Made by a program: the position numbers and the translations under genes. 64,000 nt of DNA. Source: Pseudanabaena sp. ABRG5-3. GTDB lineage: Bacteria > Cyanobacteriota > Cyanobacteriia > Pseudanabaenales > Pseudanabaenaceae. Of this stretch, positions 9,686 to 44,094 are shown piece after piece; within the stretch, counting starts at the first letter, position 1, and every line of letters begins with the position of its first letter. The notes below the pieces were generated by a model. The model did no database searches and had not been told where the DNA came from. It was given only the letters and a program-made list of their open reading frames with translations. The stretch is taken from the NCBI RefSeq assembly GCF_003967015.1, contig NZ_AP017560.1, forward strand, positions 1,984,001 to 2,048,000, given 5' to 3'.

Positions 9686-10243
9686 TTATTCTAGCATTAG
9701 CATCTGATATGCTAGTGTTTGAAATATCTCATCAACACCTTCCCCTGTCTTCGCTGATGTCGCTTTCACTAATACTTTAAGTTCGGCAAATTCCGTAGGA
9801 ATAGATTGAAATAGAATCTCTTTTTCATGGACTGTAATTAAATCGACCTTATTCAAAGCAATGATGACATGGGAATGGGGATTAATTGATTGAAAAAGTT
9901 GGACATGTCCTTTCAGGCTCTGCATACTTGCTTGCCTCGTAACGTCGCCAACAATTAATGCCCCTTTAGCTCCTTGGAGATAGCTAGGAGCAATTCCTTG
10001 AAAGCGCGTACTTCCTTCAATATCCCAAACAATTAGTTGCAATTGTTTTAAATCATCCTCGGTGGTATTTGCAATTGAATTTGTAATAGATACGAGTTTA
10101 CGGGAGATTTTCACCCCGACTGTTGATAGATACTTATCACTAAATTGACGATCTACAAATTGACGGATCAAGCTAGTTTTGCCAACGCCGAAATCGCCAA
10201 CAAGACACATTTTTTGAGAAATTACTTTTGGTGAAGAATTCAT
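9686..10243 (-). CDS. Ras/Rab-like small GTPase
   Basis: A 185-residue small GTPase of the Ras superfamily. P loop GDFGVGKTS (about residues 17-25), switch I YLSTVGVKI with the Mg-binding Thr, G3 WDIEGSTRF, G4 NKVDL and G5 TSAKTG are all present. The residue after the G3 glycine is Ser rather than the catalytic Gln of Ras, so intrinsic hydrolysis may be slow and depend on a partner. The gene starts 22 nt after the OmpA/BON protein gene and must be co-transcribed with it. Prokaryotic small GTPases of this type (for example MglA) set cell polarity and work with roadblock/longin proteins. That role here is inference. Confidence 0.93.
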   Translation of the reverse strand: MNSSPKVISQKMCLVGDFGVGKTSLIRQFVDRQFSDKYLSTVGVKISRKLVSITNSIANTTEDDLKQLQLIVWDIEGSTRFQGIAPSYLQGAKGALIVGDVTRQASMQSLKGHVQLFQSINPHSHVIIALNKVDLITVHEKEILFQSIPTEFAELKVLVKATSAKTGEGVDEIFQTLAYQMLMLE

Positions 10244-10265
10244 TTAGTTAAATAGTCTCGGACAT

Positions 10266-13070
10266 TTATTTTAGCGTAGGTTCAAACTCTACCCATCTTG
10301 CTATTTGGTCAGAAGGTTGCTGAATAGATGGTTCTATTATCCCAGAAATATGTAACCGATTTGCATTGATGCCCTTCTGTAGTAGAGCATCACGTAATGC
10401 CTGAGTACGCTTTACCCCTAGTTGATAGTTCACTGTGCGATCGCCAATATTGTCACTTTTGGCAGAAATTTTGAGGCTGTAGTCAGGATACATATCCAGA
10501 AAAGCCTTAACTTCTATTAATTTTTCTAACTCTGATGGTTGGAGGATGGTTACACCAAAAGGGAAGTAAATACGAGTCGATAGCTTTGGCACTATGAGTA
10601 TCGTGGCATTAGTCACAGCAGTAATTCCCGCGATTTTGGTGAAAGTTTGAGTGATTTTAGGGATCATGCTAGGTTGCTCGACTTGCCCTGTAATCGTCAA
10701 TTGCCCATTATTGAACTGTGTAGCAATATTGACCCCTTGGGTATAGTTAAGCACTTTAGTAAGTCGTTGGACTTCTGCCGCAACGAGTATGGGATCTGGT
10801 GGGATATTAACTGTATAGATATTGTTGTTAATGTTGGCGATCGCTATTTCCGTTTTGGTTACTTCATTGGCAACTTGAAGGGCGCGATCGCGTAAATTTT
10901 GATTGGGTAATTTACCTGAGAGTTTGAGTTGTTGACCATTAGCAGCAACATTGAGGCGATAGACCGCAAGTTCTGGCGTACTTGCAAAGGCTTCTAAAAC
11001 TTTGGCTTCGATTTGGCGATCGCGCTGGGATTGATATTGATAAATTCCCATTGGCACAAAAACTAAGGCAAACAGGGCTAAACCCAGAAAAATCAGAGCT
11101 TTTGATGATTTTTTAGGCTGAGTCTTTTCTACTTCCATCAAAGTCTTCAGTTCGAGATGAACTTTAAAGGGAACTATACTGGGATCACCATCAAATTGTT
11201 TAAGGCGATCGCCATAGACTTGGACAATTTGACCAAATACATCGCGAATTTTCGTCACAAATTCGGAGTCTGGCTCCCCACGAATGATGACTGCGAGATA
11301 GCAATAGCCAGCGACTTCTAATAAAATTTGGGAGCCACTATAGTTAATTGCATCAATCTCAGCTTTTTCTTCTGATGATCGTGACATACATTCGTTGGCA
11401 AAGCTCCGAATCGCGGTTAGCATCCCCGCTAACATATCTGAGTCAAGCGGTTCGATCAGGGTATTCAGATCACTCTGTTGAATATCAACCATCACTAATC
11501 CCGAAAGATTATGAATCAAAAATATCGCTTGCACCTCAAAGGGAACTGATTCTTTGAGAATCAACTCTGCTTCTGAAACACCCTGAATTTTGGCTCGCAA
11601 TTTACGCTGTAAGCCTCCGACACTAAAGGTTTGCTCTACTTTTTCATTAATAGATCGAATAGCTTCAGCAAAATATTTGGCGATCGTATTGCCAATTACT
11701 GGATAAAGAGCATCTACCATTGAATCGCGTTCAAGGGCAATTTGGCGTTTGATTGCGGAACCCATCTCTGGGGCAATGGCATCAATAATTGCATCCCGAT
11801 CTAGACGAATTTGTTCACGAATAGCGGCTCCCATCTCTGGGGCGATCGCCTTCGCAATCCCTTCAGGGCTACTGTGAATATGCTCACTAATGGCACTTGG
11901 CAAAATATCAGAAATCGCATGACTCATGGCAACTCGATCTAGTTGCGATCGCTCAAAGATAACTTCCGCAATAATCGGCATGATCGCTTGACACATTGAT
12001 TCTCTAGATTCTGTCACCTTCAGACTAAGGATATCCGCAATCACTGGGAGCAAAAGTTGTACTAGTTCATCTGGTTCATTAATTCGATTTTCTAATTGAG
12101 CAACTCGCTCTCTGACACCAGCAATTTCGGTAGGGATATTATCATTCTCATTGTCAATTTCTGTAAGTCGTGAACCAAGATTACTCAGACCAAGAGAAGC
12201 ATTTTGAATTAAGCTCTCTAATCCCTCAATTTTATCCATTAAGGCAGGATTATTAACCTGACTTTCAACAATCCCGAGTTTTTGTTCGACAGAAACTTTG
12301 AAACTTCTGAGGTCTTCGATCTCTGGTACAACCAGAATATCTTGGAGAAGATGTAAGGCCTGATCATCTTCTAAGGAAGTTGATGCAGAAGTATAGGAAG
12401 ATGTATTTTTTTGATTGTTTTTTTGACTGCTTTGTTGATTAATGCTATCTAGTTTTTGTGGTTGAACTGCTGACTGTATTGGCAAATTAGCTTGAGATTT
12501 ACCAACCCTTAATTCATTTAATTCATTCTCTGTTGGCAAATTAGCTTGAGTTTGATCAAGTGTTAGTCCACCACCTAAGAGGAGATCATGAATAAGATTG
12601 ATAGTCTCACTTTCTTCTGCTTGTCCTAGTGGCAAAGATTCTCTAGCTTGTGAGGCAGTTCCATTACCATTATTCCGAACTGTATTAGAACGATTGTCAA
12701 TGTCATTATATTCAATGGGTTGGATATTCTTTAGAAAAGGTAACTCATCAAGAAGACTAGGGAATGGATAACCTGAAGGCGATCGCATTTCTAAAGGTTC
12801 ATCTAGAGATTCTTGAGACAAATCTAGATCTACCAATCTAGATTTGTTTTTTGGCTCTTCATACTCAGGGCTAATATCTACAAAGCTAGAGTTATACTCA
12901 TAGTCGGCAACCTGTTCTTCATATTCTGATTGCAAAACCAGTGACTGATTTTGATTCTCAGAGTTTCGAGTCTTTTGGGATTCAATAATATTGAGTTCGG
13001 AGAGCAGAAGGAAAAACTTCTCAACGTCGCTGAGAGAATTATCATTGATATTTCCATTTCTCTCTGACAT
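10266..13070 (-). CDS. Large membrane protein with longin/roadblock-like, BON and OmpA domains
   Basis: A 934-residue protein. Residues 1-240 are polar and low-complexity. About 250-490 is helical and contains near-repeats such as IAPEMGAAIREQI and IAPEMGSAIKRQI. About 505-640 reads like a longin/roadblock-type GTPase-partner domain (FLIHNLSGLVMVD, MLTAIRSFANE, YLAVIIRGEP). One transmembrane helix lies at about 655-677 (ALIFLGLALFALVFVPMG). Two BON-like domains (680-755 and 760-825) and an OmpA-type peptidoglycan-binding domain (about 830-930) follow. The cytoplasmic half would thus face a GTPase and the other half the cell wall. The GTPase gene follows after 22 nt, suggesting a physical pair. 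The longin/roadblock assignment is by eye and needs structure prediction. Confidence 0.85.
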   Translation of the reverse strand: MSERNGNINDNSLSDVEKFFLLLSELNIIESQKTRNSENQNQSLVLQSEYEEQVADYEYNSSFVDISPEYEEPKNKSRLVDLDLSQESLDEPLEMRSPSGYPFPSLLDELPFLKNIQPIEYNDIDNRSNTVRNNGNGTASQARESLPLGQAEESETINLIHDLLLGGGLTLDQTQANLPTENELNELRVGKSQANLPIQSAVQPQKLDSINQQSSQKNNQKNTSSYTSASTSLEDDQALHLLQDILVVPEIEDLRSFKVSVEQKLGIVESQVNNPALMDKIEGLESLIQNASLGLSNLGSRLTEIDNENDNIPTEIAGVRERVAQLENRINEPDELVQLLLPVIADILSLKVTESRESMCQAIMPIIAEVIFERSQLDRVAMSHAISDILPSAISEHIHSSPEGIAKAIAPEMGAAIREQIRLDRDAIIDAIAPEMGSAIKRQIALERDSMVDALYPVIGNTIAKYFAEAIRSINEKVEQTFSVGGLQRKLRAKIQGVSEAELILKESVPFEVQAIFLIHNLSGLVMVDIQQSDLNTLIEPLDSDMLAGMLTAIRSFANECMSRSSEEKAEIDAINYSGSQILLEVAGYCYLAVIIRGEPDSEFVTKIRDVFGQIVQVYGDRLKQFDGDPSIVPFKVHLELKTLMEVEKTQPKKSSKALIFLGLALFALVFVPMGIYQYQSQRDRQIEAKVLEAFASTPELAVYRLNVAANGQQLKLSGKLPNQNLRDRALQVANEVTKTEIAIANINNNIYTVNIPPDPILVAAEVQRLTKVLNYTQGVNIATQFNNGQLTITGQVEQPSMIPKITQTFTKIAGITAVTNATILIVPKLSTRIYFPFGVTILQPSELEKLIEVKAFLDMYPDYSLKISAKSDNIGDRTVNYQLGVKRTQALRDALLQKGINANRLHISGIIEPSIQQPSDQIARWVEFEPTLK

Positions 13071-39226: not shown

Positions 39227-39490
39227 CTGATATCGTTCCAGAAAATCCAATCCGCAGAAGTCAAAGAAAAAGCATTTCGATTTGATGGCATTTTTACGCC
39301 TACCACCATCGAGAAACCGATCTTTCTCATCGAAGTCCAATTTCAGTCAAAAGAAGACTTTTACTGGGAATTTTTATCAGAAATATTTCTGTATCTTAAC
39401 CAACAACTGCGATCCGTCCGACTTACCACCCCCCTTAAACCAACTCATCAGCACCTAGACTCGCTAATTATTGATGTGTTATTGGCTTAA
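39227..39490 (+). pseudogene. Relic of a DUF2887/Rpn-type nuclease gene
   Basis: An open stretch without start codon gives AFRFDGIFTP, then KPIFLIEVQFQ and FYWEFLSEIFLYLNQQLR, ending at TAA 39488. This is the core of the DUF2887 family (PD-(D/E)XK, related to recombination-promoting nucleases), which has FDGxF and EVQFQ. About 200 residues would be missing from the C terminus and the first residues are missing too. Confidence 0.75.
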
Positions 39491-39505: not shown

Positions 39506-39700
39506 ATACGACTCCAAGATACCAACCAATGGCGTAATTGCGGCAATCAAGAAGTCTTTGAATATGAGTTAGAAAATGGCGATCGCATTAAAGCCACTAA
39601 GGATCATAAGTTCATGACGACTGATGGTGAGATGGTAGCGATCAATGAGATTTTTGAGCGTGGTTTAGATTTGCTTTGTTACAATAACGATCAAGATTAA
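39506..39700 (+). pseudogene. Relic of the N-terminal half of a DnaE split intein, copy 1
   Basis: Sixty-four open codons give [19 protein letters not shown], then [14 protein letters not shown] and [11 protein letters not shown], ending at TAA. In the Npu DnaE intein the corresponding part reads QWHDRGEQEVFEY, then [14 protein letters not shown] and IDEIFERELDL. The block B TxxH (T and H of ATKDHKF) is preserved. The first ~45 residues with the catalytic Cys1 are missing, so it cannot splice. It lies 15 nt after the DUF2887 relic and 25 nt before a Uma2 gene. Confidence 0.88.
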
Positions 39701-39725
39701 ATATAGTCAGAGAGGTTACAAACTG

Positions 39726-40289
39726 ATGACTGTTACCACTACTAGAAAAATCACCTTTGAAGAATATCTGACCTATGATGACGGCACTGATAAGCGTTAT
39801 GACTTTAATGATGGAGAACTAATTGAAGTGACTCCAGCGACTGCCTTTCATAATGCTTTAATGATGTTTTTCTCTTTTGTCTTGCAGTTAGAAATCCGCC
39901 AAAAAAGTTATCCCTATTGTGTGCGTGTTAATAGCACTGAATTACTTATCAGTAAACGCACGCGCCGCCCCGATGTATTGGTGATGACTCTGGATCAATC
40001 CCAAGGATTAGGTAATCAGCCTGATATGTTGTATGAGCCTTGCCTATTAGCAATTGAGATTGTGAGTCTAACTTGTCGTACTGTAGATACTGTAGAAAAA
40101 CGCGAAGAATATGCTCAATTTGGTATTCCTGAATATTGGATCGTTGATTTTCTCTTAGGTACTTTTTCTGTACTTATTTTAGTTAATGGAAATTATGTTG
40201 AGAAAGTTTATCGAGAGAATGACCAAATTATTTCTAATGTTTTTCCTAAGCTCAGTTTGTCCATGAATCAGGTTATGGCAGACAGATGA
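39726..40289 (+). CDS. Uma2-family nuclease-fold protein, copy 2
   Basis: A 187-residue Uma2 protein with ITFEEYLTYDDGTDKRYD, FNDGELIEVTPATAFHNAL, RRPDVLVMT and LLAIEIVS. EYAQFGIPEYWIVD is the typical C-terminal signature. Active-site acidic residues are present. It follows the split-intein relic directly on the same strand. Confidence 0.93.
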   Translation: MTVTTTRKITFEEYLTYDDGTDKRYDFNDGELIEVTPATAFHNALMMFFSFVLQLEIRQKSYPYCVRVNSTELLISKRTRRPDVLVMTLDQSQGLGNQPDMLYEPCLLAIEIVSLTCRTVDTVEKREEYAQFGIPEYWIVDFLLGTFSVLILVNGNYVEKVYRENDQIISNVFPKLSLSMNQVMADR

Positions 40290-40341
40290 TCGCACTAAAG
40301 CTACATGGGTTAGATTTGAAGATCGCTAGGGTTTCTTAGAG

Positions 40342-43179
40342 TTATGCGATCGCATAAATAACTAGATGTTCTCTAATGCCATCAAATTCAGGATCTTTTT
40401 TTGCTCGATTTTTTGTTTCTTCAGGTTGTTGATTGATCGCTAGGGCAAGATATTTGAGAGACTCGTCAATGTTGCGCTGTAAGGCATAGCAGCAAGACAT
40501 GCCATATAACGCATCAACATCATTAGGATTTTGTTGTAATACTTGTTCGCATTGCCAAATTGCTTCATCATATCTTCCCATCCAAGCAAACAAGACCCCT
40601 CGATTGATTTGAAACTGTATTTCATTGGGATCTAGATACATAGCATGATTGAAATGTTCAAGGGCTTGGTCATATTTTCCAAGTCTAGTTAAAGCAATTC
40701 CTCTCTTAGACCAAGCTTGAGCATAGTTAGGATTTAGCTCAATTGCTTTATCATGATCAGCGATCGCCTCTTCATACCGTTGTAGATTTTCTTTGGCATC
40801 ACCTCGAAACGACCAAGCTTGAGCATAGTTAGGATTTAGCTCAATTGCTTTATCATAATCAGCGATAGCTTCTTCATACCTTTGTAGATTTTCTTTCATC
40901 CCACCTTGAAACGACCAAGCTTCAGCATAGTTGGGATTTATCTGAATCGCTTTGTCATAATCAGAGATCGATTCTTCATACCTTTGTAGATTTCCCTTTG
41001 CAGTACCTCGATTAACCCATCCTTTGGCATGGTTAGGATTTAGCTCAATTACTTTGTCAAAATCAGCAATCGCTTCTTTATGCCTTTTTAGATTACCTTT
41101 TGCAATACCTCGATTAAACCAAGCTTTAACATAGTTGGGATTTAGCTCAATTGCTTTATCAAAATCGGTGATTGCTTCTTCATATTGCTCTAAAGAATTA
41201 AACAAATTGCCAACCTCTAGAAAAAGTTGACTGCGATAAATTGCTTCAATTTTTGGTTCAAGGAGATGAGCTTGTGCTTCTGCTTGTTTGGCAATGTCAA
41301 ATACTCTAGTTCGATGAGCGCGTAAACACTTGCAAATCAAGGCAATACATTTTGATAGTCCATCAGGTAAAGCATCAACCTTTTCTAAGGATTTCTTGAT
41401 CGCATTTTCAATTCTTTCTAATAAAGCTTTTGGCAAACTAACTTCATCAATTTCAACCTCAGTGTGTGGAGGGGAATTGACTAACAACCAGCCTACAGGC
41501 AATAACAGTTTTACGCTCTCCAAAAACTTTTTGTTCTCCTGTGGTAGAAGATGATTGTCATCAAATTCTGCATCCGAAGCAAGCGCCGCAAATGCAGGTG
41601 TGTCCATAACTTCAAATTGGTCGAAATAACGCGAAGCAAAAAAATGTTTCAGGAAATAAACTTGCCAACCATCTCGACGCAAATTAAAAAATGCGTGATA
41701 CATCGCCTCGGCAGTATATGTACACCAAACAGAATTCTCATACTTTTCTCCATCCCAACACTCAGGAGGCACTTCTTGGTCAGCCAGATCCTCAAAATAT
41801 TGCTGTAAGTGCGCGTGAATTTCTTTACGTTCATTAGGCTCTAAAGAGAAGTGAATGATATCCCGTGCTACATCACCTAAACGATAGCGCCCATTGCTTC
41901 CCGTAAATTCCACAAAGTCGCGCTCTTTGAGCCAATCAAAACAGTTAAGACCAGTATCAACACCCTTCGCAAAGTCTAGCTCCTGCCAATTAGCTAAACT
42001 CGTGATCGCCGTTCGATCAAACCATCGACAACAAGCTGCATACCTAACCAGTTTTTTCTGGATTTCATTTAGTCCCACTAGTAAACGCTTTTCAATCGCC
42101 TCATCGCTATCAATAGCAATGCCCTGCTCTTTTTGTTGAGCGATGAGATGCAAATGGAAAGGTAAACCATTAGTTTTTTTATAAAATTTCTCAATCTCTC
42201 TCTTATCCGTAATCCCAATTTTTTCTAGATAGTTCTTGACCTTATCCTTCTCAAACTCCCTCAACGGCAATTCCTGCACCAATCGCTCCCCAGTGATCAA
42301 ATCACTCCAGCCTTCTCTTTTAAGTAGTTGATATCGCCCTGCCGTCACCACCCTAAGCTGGCTATTCTTTAGAGCTTTATTTTTGAGAAATATCTGTCTG
42401 AGCCAAGTATCAAAATCAACCGATGCCTTTTCATAGGTATCTAGCACCAGCACCACAGGCGTTTTATGAGCATGATTTACCAAACTCTCGACAAAAGCCT
42501 GAGTAAGTTTAGGCAAAGGATCGAGCATTAACTCGCGCACCTCTGCATCCTTGGTGGCTTCATGTTTGAGTAACAACTCATCCATCAATTTATCTTTTAG
42601 TGATAATGCCGAGGCTGCTCCATCAATAGTTAGGTCTAATACACTACCAACCGCCGAAGTTGTCACGGAAGCAGCGAACTCTGTCATCGGATTGCTCACA
42701 CCTCCCGAAGCGGCGGTTTTACCTGCCCAAATCCCCGCATTTGCTACAAGCTTAGTTAGTTGTTTAACACGATCAAGCTGATCTCTCTCAACTTTTTCCT
42801 TGCCTTTAACTGGTGCATTATTTAAATTCGCCAGAGTCTCTTTGTAAGTCTTATATTTTTCACTAAAAACATCTTTTGCCAAAACATCTCTTTTCAAAAA
42901 AGAAATTTCGGGTAAATCCTTATGCAGAGCAACCATGACATCTAATGGTGTTGCGTAGTTGTCATCAAAGGTAATTGTGGCGAAGTGGATCTGCTTACCC
43001 TGTATGCGATCGCTTAAACCTTCTTGAAATTTTCTGAGCAGTGTGGACTTCCCAACTCCACCAATTCCCCAAATATTAAACATCACAGGCGAATGATCAG
43101 GTTTAGCGATCGACTCAGCGACTTCATTAATCAGTTTTTCTTCTTGTTTGTGAGGAAGGTGGAGATCTTGACTTGCCAT
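40342..43179 (-). CDS. STAND NTPase with C-terminal TPR repeats
   Basis: A 945-residue protein. An N-terminal STAND/NB-ARC-like NTPase has Walker A GIGGVGKST (about residues 37-45), Walker B VVLVLDTYEKA (about 240-250) and a winged-helix region with QELPLREFEKDKVKNYL. The C-terminal quarter has about six TPRs with near-identical 34-residue units (AIADYDKAIELNPNYAQAW). There is no recognisable effector domain at either end, so it may be a sensor or switch acting on another protein. The caspase-GUN4 operon is 5 kb away on the same strand. Function is inferred from the family only. Confidence 0.93.
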   Translation of the reverse strand: MASQDLHLPHKQEEKLINEVAESIAKPDHSPVMFNIWGIGGVGKSTLLRKFQEGLSDRIQGKQIHFATITFDDNYATPLDVMVALHKDLPEISFLKRDVLAKDVFSEKYKTYKETLANLNNAPVKGKEKVERDQLDRVKQLTKLVANAGIWAGKTAASGGVSNPMTEFAASVTTSAVGSVLDLTIDGAASALSLKDKLMDELLLKHEATKDAEVRELMLDPLPKLTQAFVESLVNHAHKTPVVLVLDTYEKASVDFDTWLRQIFLKNKALKNSQLRVVTAGRYQLLKREGWSDLITGERLVQELPLREFEKDKVKNYLEKIGITDKREIEKFYKKTNGLPFHLHLIAQQKEQGIAIDSDEAIEKRLLVGLNEIQKKLVRYAACCRWFDRTAITSLANWQELDFAKGVDTGLNCFDWLKERDFVEFTGSNGRYRLGDVARDIIHFSLEPNERKEIHAHLQQYFEDLADQEVPPECWDGEKYENSVWCTYTAEAMYHAFFNLRRDGWQVYFLKHFFASRYFDQFEVMDTPAFAALASDAEFDDNHLLPQENKKFLESVKLLLPVGWLLVNSPPHTEVEIDEVSLPKALLERIENAIKKSLEKVDALPDGLSKCIALICKCLRAHRTRVFDIAKQAEAQAHLLEPKIEAIYRSQLFLEVGNLFNSLEQYEEAITDFDKAIELNPNYVKAWFNRGIAKGNLKRHKEAIADFDKVIELNPNHAKGWVNRGTAKGNLQRYEESISDYDKAIQINPNYAEAWSFQGGMKENLQRYEEAIADYDKAIELNPNYAQAWSFRGDAKENLQRYEEAIADHDKAIELNPNYAQAWSKRGIALTRLGKYDQALEHFNHAMYLDPNEIQFQINRGVLFAWMGRYDEAIWQCEQVLQQNPNDVDALYGMSCCYALQRNIDESLKYLALAINQQPEETKNRAKKDPEFDGIREHLVIYAIA

Positions 43180-43364
43180 TCAGTTCAGGATATTAAGCTG
43201 TAAACAAGCTAAAAAAATACGTTAAACGATTATAACTGAATGTCAGATTGGAAATGATAGCGATAATCCATTTACTCGCAGCACATCCTGTATTTATTCG
43301 CCTTGCTAATTTGTGATGATGGATTTTGGCGATCGCTAAATAACTTCGCCTTATCTTCTAATGA

Positions 43365-43490
43365 CATGATCGCGGTAATCAAGAAGTCTTTGAGTATGAG
43401 TTAGAAAATGGCGATCGCCTTCAAGCTACTAAGGATCATAAGTTCATGACTACTGATAGTGAGATGAAAAGCGATCGCAAAATTTTTTGA
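43365..43490 (+). pseudogene. Relic of the N-terminal half of a DnaE split intein, copy 2
   Basis: A second decayed copy, homologous to 39506-39700. The frame gives [17 protein letters not shown] and [14 protein letters not shown] before a frameshift or stop at 43488, after which IFER-like sequence continues out of frame. It preserves HDRG, which copy 1 has lost, and the block B TxxH. It lies in the 339-nt gap between the STAND gene and the cyclotransferase gene. Neither copy carries the Cys1 region. Confidence 0.88.
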
Positions 43491-43518
43491 GCGGAGTTTC
43501 TATGAGGTTCCTATAAAT

Positions 43519-44094
43519 TTAGCCACATTCTTGATAGTTATAGGACTGTAACTTGTAAATGTGATAGAACAATTGCCAAAAGTACTTCTCGGTCAAGCCG
43601 CAAGTAGATGCACCACGCAGTACCACATTGGAATACCAATCATTCGGCGCAAGTTCGCGAGCAAGCTTATTAACAACGCTATAGGTTCTCACATTTGGAT
43701 AAACCTTGTCATCAACAGTGACAGTGATCAACTCATGTTGATAGCCACCGTGCGATACATCTTCACGAATATCCAAGCGATCGCTTAGACGCATCGGTAA
43801 GCAATATAAAACCCCTTCTACATAGGAATTGGGATCTTTAACAATATCTAAGCAACCACAACCACGATGAGGCGATCGATAGTAAAAACCAAGTTTATAA
43901 CCACTTAAACGCGCCACACCAACAACATAGTTATGGGTTGGCTCACCCAGAGTTCTCTTTAAATCCACAGGACACATACAGGAACCGTAAGCAAAGTAGT
44001 AAAACATCGGCTCAGATTGACGACATAACTCCGAATCAGGACTTGCTGAAGTCTGTAACTGTTGTATCTGCTGTGATTTAAGCGAATCTACCAT
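43519..44094 (-). CDS. Gamma-glutamylcyclotransferase-like protein
   Basis: A 191-residue (or 162, starting at the MFYYFAYGS ATG at 44007) member of the gamma-glutamylcyclotransferase fold. The substrate-binding YGSNL motif is YGSCM here. REDVSHGGYQHELITV supplies the usual acidic residue, and VEGVLYCLP is typical. Unusually, nine cysteines are present. It would act on gamma-glutamyl compounds or related amides; this is inference. Confidence 0.85.
   Translation of the reverse strand: MVDSLKSQQIQQLQTSASPDSELCRQSEPMFYYFAYGSCMCPVDLKRTLGEPTHNYVVGVARLSGYKLGFYYRSPHRGCGCLDIVKDPNSYVEGVLYCLPMRLSDRLDIREDVSHGGYQHELITVTVDDKVYPNVRTYSVVNKLARELAPNDWYSNVVLRGASTCGLTEKYFWQLFYHIYKLQSYNYQECG

Follow-up and report, generated by a model that had tools for sequence, protein, structure and literature searches.

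dnaE-N tail copies in the window

The window, i.e., the whole stretch of 64,000 nucleotides of Pseudanabaena sp. ABRG5-3 DNA that was analysed, is located on contig C1 of this genome (5.66 Mb, referred to below as G000). The part of the window considered here contains the following features, given with window coordinates and strand:

39236..39490, plus strand: remaining 3′ part of a DUF2887 gene, immediately preceding copy 1 (PF11103, E 8e-20)
39527..39700, plus strand: copy 1, a putatively displaced dnaE-N split-intein tail, open to its stop codon, without a start codon and with the first ~10 codons decayed
39527..40357 (831 bp), plus strand: segment duplicated in G000 (tail, Uma2 gene and ~65 bp), 729/838 columns (87%) against the dnaE-N 3′ end and the Uma2 pseudogene downstream of it
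39527..43243, plus strand: block consisting of tail 1, the Uma2 gene and the STAND-like gene, ~93% colinear with the region behind the intact dnaE-N of a relative, G025
39726..40289, plus strand: intact Uma2-family nuclease gene (PF05685, E 6e-27)
40342..43179, minus strand: STAND-like AAA and TPR gene (Pfam AAA_16 and TPR matches)
43360..43493, plus strand: copy 2, a putatively displaced and decayed dnaE-N split-intein tail (blastn and genome searches), with 34 residues before the frame is lost
43519..44094, minus strand: AIG2/GGACT-like gene that closes the array, as it closes the dnaE-N array of the syntenic genome G022

As can be seen, two related fragments located on the same strand, 3.8 kb apart, flank a Uma2 gene and a STAND-like gene, just as the original prediction, made from the letters of the sequence alone, had claimed. 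The Uma2 protein scored 94.6 bits with PF05685 (cut-off 27 bits). The finer details of the prediction also held: HDRG is present in copy 2 and RNCG in copy 1, the gtctttgaatatgagttag region is common to both, and the frame of copy 2 breaks at IFER.

DNA and protein searches bore out the proposal that the fragments are two decayed copies of the C-terminal end of a split N-intein. A blastn comparison with a 19.7-kb stretch containing the intact dnaE-N aligned copy 2 with the 3′ end of this gene at 115 of 134 positions (86% identity, E ~1e-38), and the alignment of copy 1 continued through the Uma2 gene (87%, 838 columns). A genome-wide DNA search with 43300-43560 as the query, i.e., the count of further copies that had been suggested, retrieved three strong places: copy 2 itself, the intact dnaE-N at G000:C1:2057610-2057742 (minus strand) and copy 1. 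Beyond these, two short matches of 30-37 bp were found. A protein search of the genome with the tail returned the same three strong places, with copy 2 interrupted by one stop. The many intact Hint-domain genes that would have made the copies ordinary fragments did not appear in the tail search, which revealed one intact parent, dnaE-N, the remaining matches being weak (E 0.24 or worse). Judging by these alignments, the fragments are what is left of the 3′ end of dnaE-N, the half of the split gene that carries the N-part of the cyanobacterial DnaE split intein. While the window tails correspond to the end of the N-half of this intein (dnaE-N / dnaE-C), they differ from it in being remnants and not splicing proteins. 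Neither forms an open frame joined to a dnaE extein, as copy 1 has no start codon or extein and copy 2 contains a stop.

A repeat of ~37 bp (window 43300-43336) leads into a HIP1 octamer beside copy 2. The repeat is also present at G000:C1:125161-125197, beside a separate MazEF locus, and pieces resembling it are found near MazEF in relatives.

The intact dnaE-N of G000 codes for 1267 aa and ends at approximately C1:2057570 on the opposite strand, ~9.6 kb past the right edge of the window; it is thus ~30 kb away from the window copies and inverted relative to them. The protein contains PHP, DNA_pol3_alpha and finger domains, as identified by Pfam, and a second, internal intein carrying a LAGLIDADG domain. 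The dnaE-C gene, with the C-half of the split intein, is located apart from dnaE-N, at C1:1833301. Throughout the genus, the length of the dnaE-N open frame varies by genome from ~865 to 1300 aa, suggesting that the internal LAGLIDADG intein was gained, lost or reduced in size.

Origin of the window block

Copy 1 is not an isolated fragment, a point missed by the original prediction: its homology to dnaE-N loci extends far downstream of the tail. The homology to the dnaE-N locus of G025 begins exactly at the 5′ border of copy 1 (39527) and comprises window positions 39527-42435 at 93.4%, followed by 42434-43243 at 93.5%. The G025 version of the block is interrupted by ~1.06 kb of extra DNA with transposase-like ORFs (named from sequence, not from Pfam). 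G017 resembles G025 as far as the G017 contig reaches. Since copy 1, the Uma2 gene and the STAND-like gene are colinear with the region at the 3′ end of G025 dnaE-N, copy 1 looks like a displaced former functional 3′ end of dnaE-N and not like a copied fragment.

The overall interpretation offered earlier stands for the split-intein end, the two copies and their recurrence, and falls for the supposed duplication of a segment that had already lost its front part. Two variants distinguish both copies from the dnaE-N of G000 itself, CAAGAAGTC and GGTGAG; these are the usual state in the intact genes of relatives, and so provide no evidence that one copy was derived from the other. We reject the copying of a truncated piece on the basis of these tail variants, the absence of the upstream 600 nt from displaced copies (see below) and the colinearity with G025; it is not needed as an explanation. 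The 5′ limit common to both copies appears to be a property of the site.

At position 43471, within copy 2, colinearity with G022 sets in, namely with the flank at the closing end of its dnaE-N array (92% over 2000 columns). Because the block is like G025 up to 43243 and the flank is like G022 from 43471, copy 2 is located at the junction of the two. Long stretches of G022 align colinearly with G000 (91-96%), and G022 contains dnaE-N, the array, the AIG2 gene and ChrA in this order in one run. Its AIG2 gene follows dnaE-N at a distance of 5 kb. Wherever else the two genes share a contig, they are at least 80 kb apart, though draft contigs may hide further cases. Compared with G022, the stretch of G000 that starts with the AIG2 gene is inverted relative to dnaE-N, and the two tail-Uma2 segments of G000 are in inverted orientation at the ends of the presumed inversion. 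The window block would accordingly be a tail array of this kind that was parted from dnaE-N by a rearrangement, the simplest being a single inversion that broke at the 3′ end of dnaE-N. In G000, the Uma2 gene immediately following the intact dnaE-N contains one in-frame TGA (between ORFs 9957-10199 and 10209-10520 of locus L012, numbered in the direction of dnaE-N); the Uma2 gene of the window is open.

The DUF2887 remnant upstream of copy 1 is a candidate relic of the cassette that displaced this tail. Two pieces of ~65 bp resembling it are present in the G022 array. In G129, three head-to-tail DUF2887-type genes, two of them matched by Pfam, are located directly behind dnaE-N.

Tail-cassette arrays in Pseudanabaena and beyond

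We searched 26 Pseudanabaena genomes with the 61-aa tail and obtained 61 match rows in 25 genomes, i.e., one intact gene per genome and 36 extra rows, some of which are halves of one broken copy. Extra decayed tails were present in 17 of the 25 intein-bearing genomes, and the same 17 were recovered in a repeat search; no extra tail was found in the other 8 genomes with dnaE-N. The piece is thus dispersed both within G000 and across the genus, as had been supposed. In 13 of the 17 genomes, the extra tails are located on the dnaE-N contig, on the same strand and downstream, with cassette genes between the tails. Those of G003 are on other contigs, with none in the 10 kb behind dnaE-N; those of G000 are the ~30-kb distant copies of the window; and for G009 and G010, whose contigs end behind dnaE-N, no position of the extra tails relative to the gene can be given. 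These counts are counts of genomes and not of independent events, and several contigs of the genus end just behind dnaE-N and may hide copies. As old tails are decayed, alignments are short there and only some of the junctions are exact.

As a control, recurrence of the last 183 nt of a gene within the same fetched stretch was scored. Such recurrence was detected for 13 of 25 dnaE-N genes and for 2 of 163 other ORFs of at least 200 aa (one dnaE-N was reassigned to the dnaE-N set for these counts), which speaks against a general duplication of gene 3′ ends.

None of the 8 genomes with a match from other genera of the order contained a second tail match. The class sample comprised 338 genomes, of which 155 had a tail match, 122 of these outside the order. 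A second profile match was found in five genomes outside the order. One of these, G316, contains a clear array; in G242, the copy and dnaE-N are on different contigs. The second matches in G233 and G306 were discarded as weak and far from dnaE-N, and that in G046 consists of two rows 8 bp apart that look like one tail in two pieces. In G316, which belongs to another family (L099 1421-5798), dnaE-N is followed by a gene pair that resembles UPF0175/DUF3368, a 218-bp tail copy (93%) and a ParE-type toxin gene. A copy detectable at the DNA level was present in one of 39 regions outside the genus (L142 of G260), where a YafQ-type toxin gene is followed by a 94-bp tail copy (84%); G316 is not among these 39 regions, having been found by the profile search.

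A set of 19 proteins of the cassette type was scanned with Pfam. Five gave no match; the others matched MazE/PemK, Phd with a ParE- or YoeB-type toxin, PIN_3, HTH_3 with Gp49, DUF2442 with DUF4160, the ‘Cytotoxic’ domain and Mrr. A Uma2 gene, identified by Pfam in the window and by likeness elsewhere, is located behind 6 of 25 dnaE-N genes of the genus, and an Mrr gene behind 3 of 25. MazEF is present in 19 of 26 Pseudanabaena genomes and within a tail array or beside a tail in only 4; it follows that the cassettes are not confined to the dnaE-N site. Among 73 ORFs near dnaE-N in 39 genomes outside the genus were 7 dnaE-C, 5 Uma2, 2 LAGLIDADG, 2 UPF0175 and 2 NERD ORFs. The far set used for comparison (50 ORFs from the same 39 genomes) was assessed among the top 25 families, so that rarer or tied families are possible in it.

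dnaE-N ends and tail borders are linked to neighbouring genes

The C-terminal residues encoded by dnaE-N vary with the gene behind it. The end LLCYNx(D/Y)QD (with SI added in G017) is found in 6 of 6 genomes with Uma2 behind dnaE-N and in none of the 19 others. LLCY lacking QD is also present in two genomes that have no Uma2 behind, G002 and G005. The end DI(T/V)KI(L/I)-stop is present in 3 of 3 genomes with Mrr behind dnaE-N and, among the rest of the 25, solely in G012, whose dnaE-N is followed by the relic of an Mrr end. The spacer after the dnaE-N stop codon, like the last codons, depends on the gene behind.

On the other side of the cassettes, the start point of a displaced tail, read by eye against gene ends, is mostly fixed by the gene in front of it. 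Tails begin at approximately codon 5 behind 4 of 4 Cytotoxic cassettes, at codons 16-18 behind four PIN cassettes (one truncated), at codons 20-22 behind three DUF4160 cassettes and at approximately codon 8 behind two MazF ends. Variation within families was also observed: codons 3, 6 and 31 for Phd/ParE, codons 25 and 39 for YoeB and, for Mrr, approximately codon 8 in three cases and codon 25 in one. Overall, the 5′ borders differ by cassette family, from approximately codon 3 to codon 25, with a border at codon 1 in G010 and slightly upstream of codon 1 in G316. Since borders differ both between and within families, they do not single out one crossover point. When the 600 nt upstream of tail codon 1 were used as the query, no matches at E <= 1e-4 were found downstream in any of the 25 genus regions or in the window. 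The linked ends and borders, together with the absence of the upstream 600 nt, point to recombination inside the tail, with a new end and cassette being brought in and the older end being displaced.

A comparison of G006 with G007 (L076, L083) revealed 16 differences in 4916 compared bases, of which 7 are concentrated in a 53-nt part of the tail (L083 4034-4086). We read this cluster as a recent recombination or conversion tract.

On a tree built from the first 690 dnaE-N codons of 25 genomes, with 7 of 22 inner branches left open, cassette types are scattered (5 changes for Uma2, 4 for Mrr and 13 for all labels). Despite their synteny, G000 and G022 do not form a sister pair on this tree. With cassette labels assigned by us, the dnaE-N end tracked the cassette in every independent pair of both comparisons (4 of 4, p 0.125, and 3 of 3, p 0.25; sets too small for significance alone).

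In three of the cassette families (DUF4160, Uma2 and the pair with L068 7811-8345), the borders start at the HIP1 octamer GCGATCGC, which occurs at 1.8 per kb in the window. Microhomology at HIP1 may have aided joining.

Adjacent dnaE halves in other cyanobacteria

A comparison of positions showed that dnaE-N and dnaE-C are located on one strand within 2.3 kb of each other in at least 26 genomes outside the order. When the ORFs of all 26 gaps were inspected, a nuclease gene was found between the halves in 13 of them, LAGLIDADG in four and Uma2 in nine:

dnaE-N / LAGLIDADG / dnaE-C: L117 (G185), L130, L165 and L168
dnaE-N and dnaE-C with Uma2 between: L131, L138, L139, L147, L156, L159, L161, L166 and L169

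The free-standing LAGLIDADG genes are those of G185 (taken as Leptolyngbya sp. PCC 7375), G042, G152 and G155, and both LAGLIDADG-type motifs are present in them. Uma2 was recognized by Pfam in G227, G121, G060, G054, G087, G295, G136 and G267, and in G110 by likeness to G121 and the family count. The gap of G267 also contains a MazE-like/PIN pair and that of G197 a PemK toxin gene. Three gaps of less than 200 bp contain no ORF, and other genes are found in the remaining ones.

The position at which DnaE is split is, as we assume, the insertion site of the intein endonuclease. In the available text of one paper, the endonuclease insertion site in inteins is called extremely conserved (PMC6801210), and the available text of one review places the DnaE halves in different parts of the genome (PMC7765530). 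At the dnaE-N / LAGLIDADG / dnaE-C loci, where the three genes are side by side, the endonuclease of the intein seems to have become a gene of its own. Such loci may be living intermediates in the evolution of the split DnaE intein, and they open the old question of how it became split to a direct test.

Proposed origin of the arrays and alternative explanations

We consider it probable that the tail copies are scars left when cassettes were repeatedly inserted at the 3′ end of dnaE-N and the gene was restored each time, with the ~150-bp tail as their recurrent landing place. According to this insert-and-restore proposal, the last ~150 bp of dnaE-N, which code for the end of the intein N-half, would receive cassettes that are mainly type II toxin-antitoxin pairs or nucleases of the restriction type. 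The arriving DNA would bring its own version of the tail ahead of the cassette, and recombination within the tail would join the incoming tail to the resident dnaE-N, so that the essential gene is restored with new last codons and with the cassette behind it. The old 3′ end, from the join onward and together with the older cassette, would be pushed downstream and decay, and repetition would generate arrays in which tails and cassettes alternate. The G000 array (tail 1, Uma2, STAND-like gene, tail 2) would later have been separated from dnaE-N, most simply by the inversion. Joining is most likely RecA-type homologous recombination between tails, combined with end-joining on the far side of the cassette, and a cut made at the site by a nuclease may assist it. 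Neither an intermediate of recombination nor a circle or a donor was seen.

Such a cut, if it is itself the driving event, is a serious rival, although we do not think it the likely one. Uma2, Mrr or the former LAGLIDADG enzyme of the intein would cut the tail near codons 3-8, and repair would copy the donor tail with its cassette and rejoin the downstream end, leaving a displaced tail. The lack of anything from the 600 nt upstream of codon 1 in displaced genus copies agrees with nuclease-driven homing, as does the position of the borders, many of which are at codons 3-8 and others further downstream, as expected for a cut followed by resection. Nuclease genes are also frequent at the site (Uma2 in 6/25 and Mrr in 3/25 of the genus, LAGLIDADG or Uma2 between adjacent dnaE halves in 13/26 other genomes). 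However, most cassette types are toxin-antitoxin pairs without a known DNA endonuclease, and Uma2 is so common in G000 (24 matches) that neighbourhood alone proves little. A wider version of this idea, which we put forward as speculative and rather unlikely, is that the split point, once the seat of the intein homing endonuclease, is still a live capture site at which free-standing LAGLIDADG/Uma2 nucleases cut, drive cassette exchange and build integron-like defence/toxin-antitoxin arrays with the coding sequence of an essential polymerase as the ‘attachment site’.

The arrays resemble what is described for prophage e14 in icd, where, in the available text of the source, the incoming copy replaces the 3′ end of the gene and a 163-bp old end is left behind (PMC6379469). 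The dnaE-N arrays share this anatomy, with a restored 3′ end and, on the far side, a displaced 3′ fragment of similar size (~130-220 bp for the better kept tails). Site-specific integration would then make the tail attB and the element tails attP, the cassettes being non-autonomous or stripped-down elements. We regard this as quite improbable. The dnaE-N arrays have very small cargo, serial events and variable junctions, the borders vary per cassette with no one common core, and no tyrosine recombinase (PF00589) was detected within 30 kb of dnaE-N or the array in 12 genomes (G316 and 11 Pseudanabaena genomes), within the limits of the contigs, several of which are short (28 kb in G316, 40 kb in G019). 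The closest match sharing a contig with dnaE-N, that of G020, is at a distance of 34 kb. By this search, which was directed at tyrosine recombinases, a tyrosine integrase acting in cis is unlikely.

Ordinary random segmental duplication followed by decay, with no special site, is hardly credible: the genomes are rearranged and the window block itself is located at a rearrangement, but the control (13/25 against 2/163), the ties of ends and borders to specific neighbour genes and the recurrence in another family all argue against it.

Relation to integrons and fractured genes

Integrons consist of small gene cassettes, many of them toxin-antitoxin genes, that are split by a recurrent repeat and have a fixed gene at the head. 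The dnaE-N arrays are similar in all of these respects, with tail copies downstream of dnaE-N separating small cassettes in 13 genomes, but differ in that their repeat is the coding sequence of an essential gene. An attC-like hairpin was not found in the tail: the intact tail had folding z-scores of -0.61 on one strand and -0.17 on the other, and the copies had z-scores of -1.46 and -1.69. Neither was an integron-type tyrosine integrase found beside the array in the PF00589 search just described. The integron reading was rejected on these two grounds.

Fractured genes, reportedly described by Dassa and colleagues in 2009, are said to be intein genes in split form, accompanied at the split by a free-standing endonuclease gene, the nucleases belonging to the EDxHD family. 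The dnaE genes of other cyanobacteria are similar in that a split intein gene has a free-standing nuclease gene at the split, an arrangement found in 13 of the 26 other genomes with adjacent halves. It is not found in G000, where dnaE-C is elsewhere. The cargo in the genus also differs, being mainly toxin-antitoxin genes, and the LAGLIDADG/Uma2 nucleases differ from the EDxHD family.

Significance

The titles and opening parts of abstracts of the literature searched contained no description of tail-cassette arrays or of adjacent dnaE halves, which is no proof of absence. If the insert-and-restore proposal holds, the split-intein end of an essential replication gene would be a safe and reusable landing place for toxin-antitoxin and nuclease genes, with the host gene being rebuilt each time. 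This would explain the spread of such modules in cyanobacteria without an integron at the site.
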